Assembly (NCBI GenBank): GCA_024688225.1
Contig: JAILEI010000095.1
Span: 1 to 33,740, forward strand
DNA length: 33,740 nucleotides
Direction: 5' to 3'
Source of the DNA: Succinivibrionaceae bacterium
GTDB lineage: Bacteria > Pseudomonadota > Gammaproteobacteria > Enterobacterales > Succinivibrionaceae
This document shows positions 9,324-29,002 of this stretch, piece after piece. Position 1 is the stretch's first letter. Each line of letters starts with the position of its first letter. Under the pieces are notes generated by a model. It was not told where the DNA came from and ran no database searches. It saw only the letters and a list, made by a program, of their open reading frames with translations. A program made the position numbers and the translations under genes.

Positions 9324-9348
9324 TGCGGCCGGCATAAAGCCGGCCGCA
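9324..9348. terminator. Strong hairpin between convergent ldt and rpoA genes (possible bidirectional terminator)
   Basis: TGCGGCCGGC-ATAAA-GCCGGCCGCA, 10-bp perfect stem; no long U-tract on either side. Confidence 0.5.
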
Positions 9349-9355
9349 ATCCATC

Positions 9356-10351
9356 CTAGAGGGACATGTCGAGATCTGGCGGCGGCCAGTTCTCGAGGCG
9401 CATGCCCAGGGACAGCCCGCGCTCGGCAAGCACGTCCTTGATCTCGGTCAGGGACTTCTTGCCAAGGTTCGGGGTCTTGAGCAACTCGACCTCGGTGCGC
9501 TGCACCAGGTCGCCGATGTACTTGATCCCCTCGGCCTTGAGGCAGTTCGCCGAGCGCACGGTCAGCTCCAGATCCTCGACCGGGCACACCAGCTTGGGAT
9601 CGATGAGCGGGCGGAAGCTCGAGCTCTCAGTGCTCGGCACGCTGTTGCGGATGTCCACGAAGCAGTTGAGCTGGTCGGCCAGGATGGTCGCAGCAGCGCT
9701 GATCGCGGTATCCGGGGCAATGGTGCCGTTGGTCTCAAGGTCGAGCAGCAGCCGCTCGGTCCCGTTGTCGAGGGACTCGACATGGACCGCCACGTTCTGC
9801 ACCGGGCAGTAGTAGGCGTCCATCATCAGGCGGCCGATCATGCGGTTCTCGGTGCCCTCGATGTGGGGGCGCGCCACTGCCTGCACATAGCCGCGTCCGC
9901 GGCTGACATGCAGGGTCATGTGCAGCTTCACCTCAGGATCGGTGATGTGGCACAGCTCAAGCTCGGGGTTCTTGATCTCGATGCCGGCCGGGCACTGGAT
10001 GTCGCCCGCGGTAACGGTCCCCACCCCCTGCTTGGACAGTTCGAGGATCTGGTCCTGCTGCTGGGTGTCGGTGCACTGCACCGCCACGTCCTTGAGGTTG
10101 AGCAGGATGATGAGGATGTCCTCCTTGACCCCCTCGAGCGCGCTGTACTCATGCACCACCCCGTCGATCTCGGCCTCGGTGATGGCGTTGCCCGGGATCG
10201 AGGAGAGCATGATGCGGCGAAGCGAGGTGCCCATCAGCTGCGCGCAGTCACGCGCAAAGGGCTCAAGCACCACCCGGAAGTGGTTGTGCTCCACTTCCTT
10301 GACCTCGGTGATGCCCGGCTTCAAAGTTTCTAGGATTTGATCCACTCTCAC
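9356..10351 (-). CDS. rpoA: RNA polymerase alpha subunit, second copy (beta-contact type), downstream of rplQ
   Basis: N-terminal [59 protein letters not shown] and full alpha-CTD. GTG at 10345 may be the true start (better SD spacing). Confidence 0.96.
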
Positions 10352-10367
10352 ACCTTACAAGTCTGAA

Positions 10368-10415
10368 ACGAAATTTGCCCTAAGGCGGGTTTCGTGGGGG
10401 CGCTCTCGCGCCCCC
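10368..10415 (-). promoter_or_regulatory. Two adjacent hairpins between rplQ and the second rpoA
   Basis: GGGGGCGC-GAGA-GCGCCCCC (10396-10415, 8-bp stem, GNRA-type loop) directly followed by ACGAAA...TTTCGT (10368-10395). Confidence 0.55.
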
Positions 10416-10421
10416 TGCGGC

Positions 10422-10841
10422 TTACTCGGCTGCGGGAGCGCTCTCCTGCGCGGCGGGCGCGGGGGCGGCCTCCTCGGCCACGTCCTCGCGGTCGACCAGC
10501 ATGATGTAGGCCATCATGGCCTGGTCACCGGGGCGGAAGCCGCACTTGAGGATGCGGGTGTAGCCACCGGGGCGGTTCGCGGAGCGCTTGCCCACCTTGT
10601 TGAACAGCTTGGCGACCACGCCGTTGTCGCGCAGCCGGGCAAAGACCAGGCGGCGGTGGGCGACGGAGTCCTCCTTGGCGATGGTGATGAGCGGCTCGAC
10701 AAAGCGGCGCAGCTCCTTGGCCTTGGGGACGGTGGTCTTGATGCACTCGCGAATGATCAGGGCGTTGGCGAGATTGCGGTACAAAGCCGCGCGGTGCGCG
10801 GCGGTGCGGCCGAGGTGGCGGCCAGCATGACGATGACGCAT
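10422..10841 (-). CDS. rplQ: 50S ribosomal protein L17
   Basis: [30 protein letters not shown]-terminal Ala/Pro/Glu-rich tail [17 protein letters not shown]. Confidence 0.96.
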
Positions 10842-10872
10842 TTCTAGTTCCTTCTCAAAACGTTATCTATGG

Positions 10873-11853
10873 CTACTTGAGTCCAGGCGGCGGCCAGTTG
10901 GCCACGCGCATGCCCAGCGAGAGGCCGCGCTGCGCGAGCACGTCCTTGATCTCGGTGAGGGACTTCTTGCCCAGGTTGGGGGTCTTGAGCAGCTCGACCT
11001 CGGTCCGCTGCACCAGATCCCCGATGTAGATGATTGACTCCTGCTTGAGGCAGTTCGCCGAGCGCACGGTGAGCTCGAGGTCATCGACCAGCTGCATGAG
11101 CACCGGATCCGGCATGGGGGGAGCGGCAGGCGCCATGGCCTCCCTGGCCATGTCATCACGGTTCACCAGGTTGGCGAGGCTCGCGCCCAGGGACTCCGCG
11201 GCGCTCATGAGCGCCTTGTCCGGGGTCACGGTGCCGTCAGTCTCGATGTCGATGACCAGCTTGTCAAGGTCAGTGCGCTGCTCAACGCGGGCGGACTCGA
11301 CCTCATAGACGAAGCGGCGCACCGGGGAGTAGGAGGCGTCGATCAAGATCTCGCCATCCTGGTCCGCGGGCATGTGCAGGCTGGAGCCAGCCGGCACGTA
11401 GCCTGCGCCCTGGAGCACCCTCAGCTTCATCGAGATGGCGGCCTTGTCGCCCTGCAGGTGGCAGATCACGCAGTCGGGGTTGACGATCGAGATCCCCTCA
11501 GGGCACTCAATCTCCCGCGCCGTGACCTCGCCCTCGCCCTTGTGCTCGAGGGTCAGCCAGATGGGAGCGGCAACCGGGCCGTTCCCGCTGACCGCGACGG
11601 ACTTGATGTTCATCACCAGCTCCACGACGGACTCCACAAGGTCGTCCTTCGCGGCGTTGGGCGAATCCACGCCCTCGATGCGGATGGCATCGATGGCAAG
11701 CCCGCCCATGGCCTTGAGCAGAATCCCGCTCAACGCCACGCCCAGGGTGCTGCCATAGCCGCGCTCCATGGGCTCGAGCACGAGCCGCGCGCGGTTTTCA
11801 CCAGTCTCGGAATAACCGACTGGCTTGGGCTTCAGCAGTTCGCTTACTGGCAC
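10873..11853 (-). CDS. rpoA: RNA polymerase alpha subunit, canonical-slot copy (beta'-contact type), between rpsD and rplQ
   Basis: [73 protein letters not shown], and full alpha-CTD. Confidence 0.96.
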
Positions 11854-11895: not shown

Positions 11896-12522
<627 letters not shown>

Positions 12523-12555: not shown

Positions 12556-13011
12556 CTAGACGCGGCGCTTCTTGGGCGGACGGCATCCGTTGTGCGGGAT
12601 CGGGGTCACGTCGGTGATGCTGGTGATGAGGTAGCCGATGCTGTTGAGGGCCCGGATGGAGGACTCACGGCCGGGGCCAGGGCCCTTGACCATGACGCTC
12701 AGCTTCTTGAGCCCAAACTCCTGGGCGGCGCGGCCGGCCCGCTCCGCGGCAACCTGCGCCGCGTAGGGGGTGGACTTGCGCGAGCCGCGGAAGCCCGAGC
12801 CGCCAGCGGTGGCCCAGGTCAGCACGTTGCCCTGCACGTCGGAGATGGTGACGATGGTGTTGTTGAAGGAGGCATGGATATGCGCCACGCCCTCGGCAAC
12901 CTGCTTCTTGGAGCGCTTGCCGGTGCGGCGGACGGCCGGGGTGGCCTTGGCCTCGGCGGCCGGGGCGGACTCGGCAGGGGCCGCAGTGTTCTCTTTGATT
13001 GCGTCTGACAT
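12556..13011 (-). CDS. rpsK: 30S ribosomal protein S11 with N-terminal extension
   Basis: [18 protein letters not shown]...[11 protein letters not shown]; extra N-terminus [27 protein letters not shown]. Confidence 0.97.
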
Positions 13012-13021
13012 GTCTAGGCTC

Positions 13022-13378
13022 CTACTTCTTTATGCTCTTGCGCGGGCCCTTGCGGGTGCGGGCATTGGTCTTGGTGCGCTGCCCGCGCACGGGCAGGCCG
13101 CGGCGGTGGCGCTGGCCACGGTAGGTCCCGAGGTCAATCAGGCGCTTGATGTTCATGGACACCTCGCGGCGCAGGTCGCCCTCGACGGTGTACTTGGACA
13201 CTTCCTCACGGATCTTGTCCACGAGGTTCTCCGCGATGTCGCGGAACTTGGTGTTGGGGTCGACGCCGACCGCCTCGCAGATCTTGCGGGCGCGGGTCGG
13301 TCCAATGCCGTAGATCGCCTGGAGGGCGATTTCGGCATTCTTGTGGTCAGGCACATTGATGCCAGCTATACGGGCCAC
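13022..13378 (-). CDS. rpsM: 30S ribosomal protein S13
   Basis: [30 protein letters not shown]...; GTG start with AGGAG upstream. Confidence 0.97.
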
Positions 13379-27220: not shown

Positions 27221-29002
27221 CTACCCCAGCACCATCGGGCTGCGCCCCAGGCGCTGGGCCTTGTACATCATCATCCTGAGCAGCCGCGGCACGCTGTCCG
27301 GGCCGCGGGCGCGCATCTCATCGAGGATGGTGAGCGCAAGGCCCGGCTTGCTCTGGCGGTGGATGGCGGTCTCAATGACCTTGTCCACCGTTTCCCCCCG
27401 CCGCAGCGGGCGGTTGATCCCCGCCGCCTGGCGGAAGGACTCCGCAAAGCCGTTGGCATAGAGGAAGTGCTCGATGTCGAGGCTGGGGAGGATGAGCAGG
27501 TGGTCGCCGAGGTTGTAGTCGGTGAAGGACATGACCGTCTTGGCGTAGCGCTGCCCCGCCTCGTCGCCGTCGGTGAGCACGAAGAAGGAGATCCCCAGCT
27601 GCCTGGAGAGCTTGAGCAGGGGGTGCAGCCCGCACTGGGCAAACTCGAGGATGCGCAGCCCGCAGCAGGGCAGGCTGATGCCCATGAGGTTGGCCACCTC
27701 ATTGAGGATCCACACCTCGGTCTCCCCCTCGACCAGCAGCCAGGCCCGCGCGAAGAAGGCAATCGGGCGGCTCATGCGGACGTGGAAGGCGATGCGCCTG
27801 AGATCCTGGGCGCTGAAGCGCTCGGAGTTGAGCCTATAGCAGCGCGTGTCGTAGCGCAGGCGGCAGAGCCGGCGCAGCGAGGACAGCGGCTGGGCGCTGA
27901 CAAAGTCGCAGGAGTTGGTGGTGATGATCTTCTGGGTGGGGAGGGTGTTCACCACCGACCAGAAGGAGAGCAGCATCGAGGGGTGGAAGCGCGACTCGAT
28001 GTCCTCGAAGATGAGGATGGGCCGCGCCTGGGGATCGAACCTGCGCTTGCCCTTGGAGAGGGTCAGGGAGCTGATGAGGTAGGTCGCCAGCAGCTTGTTG
28101 ACGCTCAGGTCGTCGGACTTGAGCAGCGACTGCAGCGAGGTCATCGACTCCAGGGAGTAGGGGCGGTTGACCACCTCGCGGATGGACTCGGGGGTGCGGC
28201 GGTTGACCCGGCGCACGAAGCTGCCGTTGTAGTTGGTCAGGTACTTGTAGAAGACCTCGTCGAGGGTGCGCACGCACTCGTTGATTTCCTCGGCGCTGGC
28301 ATCGGTGCCGGTGGCGAGCTCCACCACCTTGCGCGAGACCTCCAGGCTGTCATGATCAAGGCCCGGGGCGTCGCCATCCACGGTGGGCACGTCCTGGGGG
28401 TGCACGCGGCTGTCGCGCAGCCTCAGCACCGGGTTCATCTCGATGAGCAGCGCCACCTGGTCGGGCACGTCCACACCCTTAATTTCCCTGCCGTGCTGGT
28501 CAAGGAAGCAGTGCGTGGTGGCAAAGCCCCCCGTGGTACGGCCGCCGCGGGCGCGCCAGCGGATGCGCATGAACCCGTCGCGCGAGCTCGACCACACCGG
28601 GGCCAGGCGCCTCAGGCGCCGAAAGCGGGTGGCGTCGCCCGGGTGATCCTCGCGGAAGGTCAGCTCCACCACGATCGCGCCGGGCTCACACTCGTAGACG
28701 TCATGGCGCAGGAAGCGGCTGTCCTCGCGGCGGTAGTCCGCGTCCTCGGCCGCCGAGGGGGCACCCCCCTCCTCCCCGCCCCCCTCGGGGGCGGCGGAGT
28801 CAACGCGGATGGGCAGGTAGAGATCCTGCTCCTCGAAGCTGCAGGGGGCGGCGTCGCGCCCCAGCATCACCCACAGCGCCCGGAGCAGCGAGGTCTTGCC
28901 CCAGGTGTTCTCGCCGATCAGGGTGGTGGTGTCCTGCTCGAGGTCCAGGCAGACGCTGCGCAGGCCCCGGAAGTTGTGGGCCTCAACGCGCTCCAGGTGC
29001 AT
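27221..29002 (-). CDS. ybjD: OLD-family ATP-dependent nuclease, YbjD-like (DUF2813)
   Basis: MHLERVEAHNFRGLRSVCLDLEQDTTTLIGENTWGKTSLLRAL (Walker A) and Toprim-like WLLVEGETEVWILNE...FFVLTDGDEAGQRYA. Confidence 0.85.
   Translation of the reverse strand: MHLERVEAHNFRGLRSVCLDLEQDTTTLIGENTWGKTSLLRALWVMLGRDAAPCSFEEQDLYLPIRVDSAAPEGGGEEGGAPSAAEDADYRREDSRFLRHDVYECEPGAIVVELTFREDHPGDATRFRRLRRLAPVWSSSRDGFMRIRWRARGGRTTGGFATTHCFLDQHGREIKGVDVPDQVALLIEMNPVLRLRDSRVHPQDVPTVDGDAPGLDHDSLEVSRKVVELATGTDASAEEINECVRTLDEVFYKYLTNYNGSFVRRVNRRTPESIREVVNRPYSLESMTSLQSLLKSDDLSVNKLLATYLISSLTLSKGKRRFDPQARPILIFEDIESRFHPSMLLSFWSVVNTLPTQKIITTNSCDFVSAQPLSSLRRLCRLRYDTRCYRLNSERFSAQDLRRIAFHVRMSRPIAFFARAWLLVEGETEVWILNEVANLMGISLPCCGLRILEFAQCGLHPLLKLSRQLGISFFVLTDGDEAGQRYAKTVMSFTDYNLGDHLLILPSLDIEHFLYANGFAESFRQAAGINRPLRRGETVDKVIETAIHRQSKPGLALTILDEMRARGPDSVPRLLRMMMYKAQRLGRSPMVLG

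Follow-up and report, generated by a model that had tools for sequence, protein, structure and literature searches.

Reciprocal interface loss in tandem RNA polymerase alpha genes of Succinivibrionaceae suggests an oriented alpha heterodimer

Two diverged genes for the alpha subunit of RNA polymerase (RNAP) lie on either side of rplQ in the alpha operon of a Succinivibrionaceae genome (2.05 Mb, 96% complete), and each copy has lost much of one of the two interfaces with the large subunits. They were analysed in a window of 33,740 nucleotides (contig JAILEI010000095.1, positions 1 to 33,740; contig 31 of genome G000), where the copy that follows rpsD, in the canonical slot, is referred to as u and the second copy downstream of rplQ as d. 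The two products very probably form an obligate oriented heterodimer, alpha(d)-beta/alpha(u)-beta', which would have arisen by tandem duplication and reciprocal specialisation. An orientation-fixed heterodimer had been proposed in an earlier note on this DNA; the reciprocal interface loss on which it was based was confirmed here, and the heterodimer stands as the best, partly supported, explanation of the sequences.

The gene order on the minus strand of the window is rpsM-rpsK-rpsD-rpoA(u)-rplQ-rpoA(d). The operon starts with rpsM (S13) and rpsK (S11; PF00411) at 12556..13378, followed by rpsD (S4; PF00163 and PF01479) at 11896..12522, rpoA(u), predicted to encode the beta'-facing alpha, at 10873..11853, rplQ (L17; PF01196) at 10422..10841 and rpoA(d), predicted to encode the beta-facing alpha, at 9356..10351. 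Both rpoA genes are intact at the coordinates given in the earlier note, with rplQ between them, and the peptides quoted there are exact. Each of u and d contains RNA_pol_L, the RpoA insert and the alpha C-terminal domain (CTD) in order, all above Pfam cut-offs, and the whole genome has two PF01193 loci only, u and d, with no third alpha. The second GTG of d, at 10345, is more likely to be its start than that at 10351 because of a better-placed AAGG and a match to the family start M-D-Q. A terminator-like hairpin of 10 pairs (9 GC) follows right after the d stop (9324..9348, minus strand) and likely marks the operon end; its T tail is weak and the count of such sites in the region is not above that in shuffles. 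A GC-rich hairpin lacking a T tract, GGGGGCGC GAGA GCGCCCCC, was also observed between rplQ and rpoA(d) (10396-10415, minus strand), and may be an attenuator or what is left of an earlier operon end. Elsewhere in the window (27221-29002, minus strand), a 593-aa protein with a DUF2813 match and an OLD-like TOPRIM domain is possibly an ATPase-nuclease. For the u copy, an AlphaFold2 model built with a family alignment of 35 sequences reached a pLDDT of 85 and had E. coli alpha as its top PDB matches; a single-sequence model of u (pLDDT 32) was discarded, as was the codon-adaptation index as a proxy for expression, which gave no separation of genes in this high-GC3 genome.

In E. coli, the determinants of beta binding in alpha comprise R45, L48 and footprints at residues 30-55 and 65-75, and those of beta' binding comprise footprints at 175-185 and 195-210 together with K86 and V173 (PMC3294249). 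R45 is needed for beta binding, and its loss alone blocks formation of the alpha2-beta complex (PMC3294249). As the earlier note had reported, the window's u has S and G in place of R44/R45 (11725..11730, minus strand), and it also lacks H66 and Y68 but keeps the beta'-side segment ARVEQRTD (E. coli 190-197; 11269..11292, minus strand). The reverse applies to d, which keeps R44/R45 (10214..10219, minus strand) and HEYS, while ARVEQRTD is replaced and four residues are deleted (9755..9775, minus strand), again as first noted. The pattern extends to relatives with the same architecture, termed type A: R44, R45 and H66 are absent from u in 27/27 cases, with ARVEQRT kept in all 27 and K200 changed to R in 26, whereas d keeps R44, R45, H66 and Y68 and has lost 190-197 in every one, with the 4-residue deletion in most. 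Neither type A copy thus has both large-subunit interfaces.

The contrast was quantified by scoring lost positions at columns with at least 85% conservation among single-copy alphas, with contact residues taken from the published footprints rather than from a structure of this enzyme. In type A, nine positions of the beta footprint were lost in u alone versus four in d alone, and across 173-210 none was lost in u alone versus 11 in d alone (Fisher p = 0.0006; p = 0.011 with the strict footprint). The window's own pair gave 9 versus 7 on the beta side and 1 versus 12 on the beta' side (u-only versus d-only, p = 0.008). A permutation control gave p = 0.0005, and a stricter circular shift was borderline (6/101). 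The earlier note had described d as keeping the region of residues ~30-90 and the two copies as exact mirrors. R44/R45 are indeed kept in d and the reciprocal loss is real and lineage-wide, but residues 30-42, which lie inside the beta footprint at the start of dimer helix H1, are more altered in d than in u, especially at 33-42; the d peptide quoted in the note began just past most of these residues. At the level of sequence, the reciprocal loss is real and the mirror is inexact.

The dimer contacts of the two copies have also diverged. The E. coli dimer has residues 35, 38 and 39 from one monomer packed against 46, 50 and 227 from its partner (PMC3294249). In type A, d has Y at 35, I or V at 38 and mostly a change at 39, with I46, S50 and Q227 kept; u retains T38 in all 27 copies and, in most, F35 and L39, but differs at S50 in 26/27 and at Q227 in most. 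Pairing u with d would bring ancestral residues together at one contact cluster and changed residues together at the other, whereas in a homodimer each cluster would combine an ancestral side with a changed one. This pattern, drawn from six positions, suggests a preference for the heterodimer.

Identity between u and d is about 33% in the N-terminal domain (NTD) and about 78% in the CTD, so that it is mainly the assembly domain that has diverged. R265, N268, C269, G296, K298, S299 and E302 are invariant in the CTDs of u and d, and both CTDs retain the classical DNA- and activator-contact residues. Gene conversion of the CTD was considered and rejected, since the identity of type A u and d CTDs is 0.777 both within and between genomes and the CTDs cluster by copy, not by genome.

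The nearest named relatives of the source genome are Succinivibrio, Succinatimonas, Anaerobiospirillum and Candidatus Avisuccinivibrio (u identity 63-67%). The order S13-S11-S4-alpha-L17-alpha was shared by all 42 two-copy loci examined, from 37 distinct genomes, including that of the isolate Succinivibrio dextrinosolvens DSM 3072; the survey of sister genomes proposed earlier thus recovered the same layout throughout, and its recurrence in 42/42 loci, cultured isolates among them, rules out an assembly artefact or chance. Single-copy relatives have the order S13-S11-S4-alpha-L17. Two alpha loci were found in 46 of the 57 Succinivibrionaceae genomes searched and one in six (genera g5 and g11); the remaining five comprised one with a match cut by a contig end and four with no detected alpha, of which three are <90% complete and one is at 89% or less. 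Other families of the order had one alpha in 24/24 sampled genomes. Among 369 evenly sampled Gammaproteobacteria, two diverged alphas occurred outside Succinivibrionaceae only in three genomes of a single family (f74), one of which encodes two proteins matching Francisella alpha 1 and alpha 2 of PDB 6wmp with 564.7 and 563.1 bits. In another genome, G293, two alpha copies, both canonical, lie on separate contigs. Three candidates were rejected as two-alpha genomes: G380, which is fragmentary, and G240 and G301, in each of which one alpha is split by an insert. The lone alpha of the latter two (L167 and L168) carries an insertion that splits the dimerisation-domain match, and the CTD of G240 is unusual.

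In a tree of beta and beta', the single-copy genera were sister to all two-copy genera, which fell into two clades, type A and a second group, type B. The alpha trees united the u copies of types A and B (98) and likewise the d copies (98), and both clades persisted when the interface columns were removed (97 for u, 96 for d); a single duplication therefore explains both types. Type B u keeps R44/R45 and ARVEQRT and hence both interfaces, so that a u-u homodimer is possible in type B. Type B d keeps R44/R45 and has lost 190-196 without the 4-residue deletion. The simplest order, as read from these sequences, would be duplication, then loss of the beta' side by d, then loss of the beta side by u in the type A lineage only; a history in which g5 and g11 had the duplicate and lost it would be less simple. 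Between close relatives the NTD dN/dS was 0.03-0.21 for both copies versus 0.05-0.07 for single-copy alphas, and no frame damage was found in the loci examined. Both u and d are under purifying selection.

Several insertions were observed in the polymerase subunits of these genomes. The beta subunit carries an insertion of 133-148 aa in 14/14 two-copy genomes examined (rpoB, L142-L158; contig 137 in G000); in all six whose insertion site was inspected it follows E. coli beta residue 414. The insertion is absent from three single-copy family members and from outgroups and falls on the same branch as the alpha duplication. In five type B d copies (L116, L117, L119, L121 and L137), 15 residues are inserted after E. 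coli alpha residue 106, with further small inserts close to 94 and 160. Type B beta' (L151-L153) contains 59-60 additional aa after E. coli residue 1072, and beta' of G005 a further 160 aa after residue 502.

One alternative is that u and d are interchangeable alphas, kept for dosage or to provide several RNAP species (homo- and heterodimers) in a regulated ratio. Both genes do lie in one operon, both CTDs carry the classical contact residues and type B u has both interfaces. However, the R45 whose loss blocks alpha2-beta formation in E. coli (PMC3294249) is missing from type A u in all 27 cases, d is as uniformly devoid of the beta' segment, and the divergence is concentrated in the NTD, all of which makes interchangeability quite unlikely. 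It is scarcely credible that one copy has left the polymerase for another role or is decaying: both NTDs are far from E. coli alpha (45% and 49% identity), but purifying selection acts on both copies, the loci examined show no frame damage and neither copy alone keeps both large-subunit interfaces in a genome that has no third alpha.

A different question is whether the two-alpha system was transferred from, or shares ancestry with, the pair of Francisella. A reduced alpha tree joined u to Francisella alpha2 (98), and a grouping of d with alpha1 was not rejected by AU tests. Because of long branches, however, the alpha trees and their AU tests do not discriminate between a shared and a separate origin, and neither does restricting them to the CTD or to non-interface columns. 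In type B, u has retained R45 and d is free of the 4-residue deletion, yet both join their type A counterparts at 98, which implies that these type A losses postdate the A/B split and makes common descent with the Francisella pair unlikely for them. Francisella has its second gene at a separate genomic site and a beta-type copy in the operon, the reverse of the arrangement here (PMC3294249), and among the 369 Gammaproteobacteria sampled two diverged alphas were confined to Succinivibrionaceae and Francisella. Shared origin of the whole system is accordingly improbable, and an oriented heterodimer that evolved within Succinivibrionaceae remains the preferred reading.

The similarity to Francisella, so far the only bacterium with a known heterodimer of this kind, is nevertheless close. 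There, an alpha1/alpha2 heterodimer was demonstrated by pull-down, two-hybrid and reconstitution assays (Mukhamedyarov et al. 2011, PMC3294249), and its orientation was proposed from reciprocal changes, R45 being gone in alpha2 and K200 in alpha1 (PMC3294249). Both systems have two diverged alphas, one with R45 and without the 190-196 segment and the other the reverse, and in both the dimer contacts are changed, among them T38, which is I in the beta-type copy; Francisella alpha1 carries T38I and G36A. In sequence comparisons d scored higher against alpha1 (213.7 bits) than alpha2 (133.6 bits), and u higher against alpha2 (198.1 bits) than alpha1 (152.1 bits). The positions lost in type A u overlapped those lost in alpha2 (19 versus 11 expected, p = 0.0003) and those lost in type A d overlapped those lost in alpha1 (13 versus 8 expected, p = 0.012), whereas the crossed pairs (type A u with alpha1, type A d with alpha2) showed no enrichment in lost-position overlap. 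On all sequence criteria the Succinivibrionaceae pair is a predicted oriented heterodimer of the Francisella type. It differs in gene arrangement: Francisella has its two genes at unlinked sites, with a beta-type alpha in the canonical operon, whereas in Succinivibrionaceae both flank rplQ in tandem and the canonical slot holds the beta'-type. Succinivibrionaceae also still include single-copy sisters and one-sided intermediates, and their u and d CTDs have stayed about 78% identical.

An alpha heterodimer with reciprocal loss is therefore not new as an idea, having been proposed for Francisella in 2011, with further cases predicted by the same authors (PMC3294249), and the novelty claimed in the earlier note was overstated in part. 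No paper on Succinivibrionaceae and rpoA or a duplicated alpha was retrieved in the literature searched, outside which most subscription journals fall; within the papers searched, the second lineage, the tandem layout around rplQ and the intermediates look undescribed. Chloroflexus and Streptomyces avermitilis likewise have two rpoA genes per genome, but the dimer and beta/beta' positions of the Chloroflexus pair are reported not to be drastically changed, and the pair of S. avermitilis is described as a fairly recent duplication (PMC3294249).

Textbooks treat the alpha homodimer as a constant of bacterial RNAP; archaea and eukaryotes use an oriented heterodimer. The Rpo3-Rpo11 (Rpb3-Rpb11) subunits are far more divergent than u and d, differ in size and lack a bacterial alpha-CTD. 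They resemble the present pair as an asymmetric alpha pair, in which the large subunit touches the beta-like subunit, but depend on Rpb10/Rpb12 (PMC3294249). On balance, Succinivibrionaceae appear to preserve a series from homodimer to obligate oriented heterodimer, independent of Francisella and parallel to Rpb3/Rpb11. Its first stage would be the one bifunctional alpha of the single-copy genera. The alpha gene would then have been duplicated in tandem around rplQ, inside the alpha operon, in the ancestor of most Succinivibrionaceae, with a one-sided loss still represented by type B, in which d may be beta-only and u bifunctional. In type A, d would have kept the beta-binding patch (R44/R45, 65-75) and lost the beta'-contact segment, u would have kept that segment and lost the patch, and a heterodimer-specific dimer interface would have been added, the complementary changes at 35/38/39 in d and 50/227 in u probably disfavouring homodimers. 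In the resulting RNAP, alpha(d)-alpha(u)-beta-beta', d would invariably dock on beta and u on beta', and this orientation would fix which CTD sits on which side.

If this is true, the beta-side alpha-CTD of type A enzymes would be fixed, which bears on models of class I and class II activation. A nearly family-wide second bacterial case, with intermediates and unduplicated sisters, would make the step from symmetric to asymmetric alpha testable in extant enzymes. The hosts of this system are gut and rumen bacteria, among which S. dextrinosolvens is cultured, so that its biochemistry is within reach.
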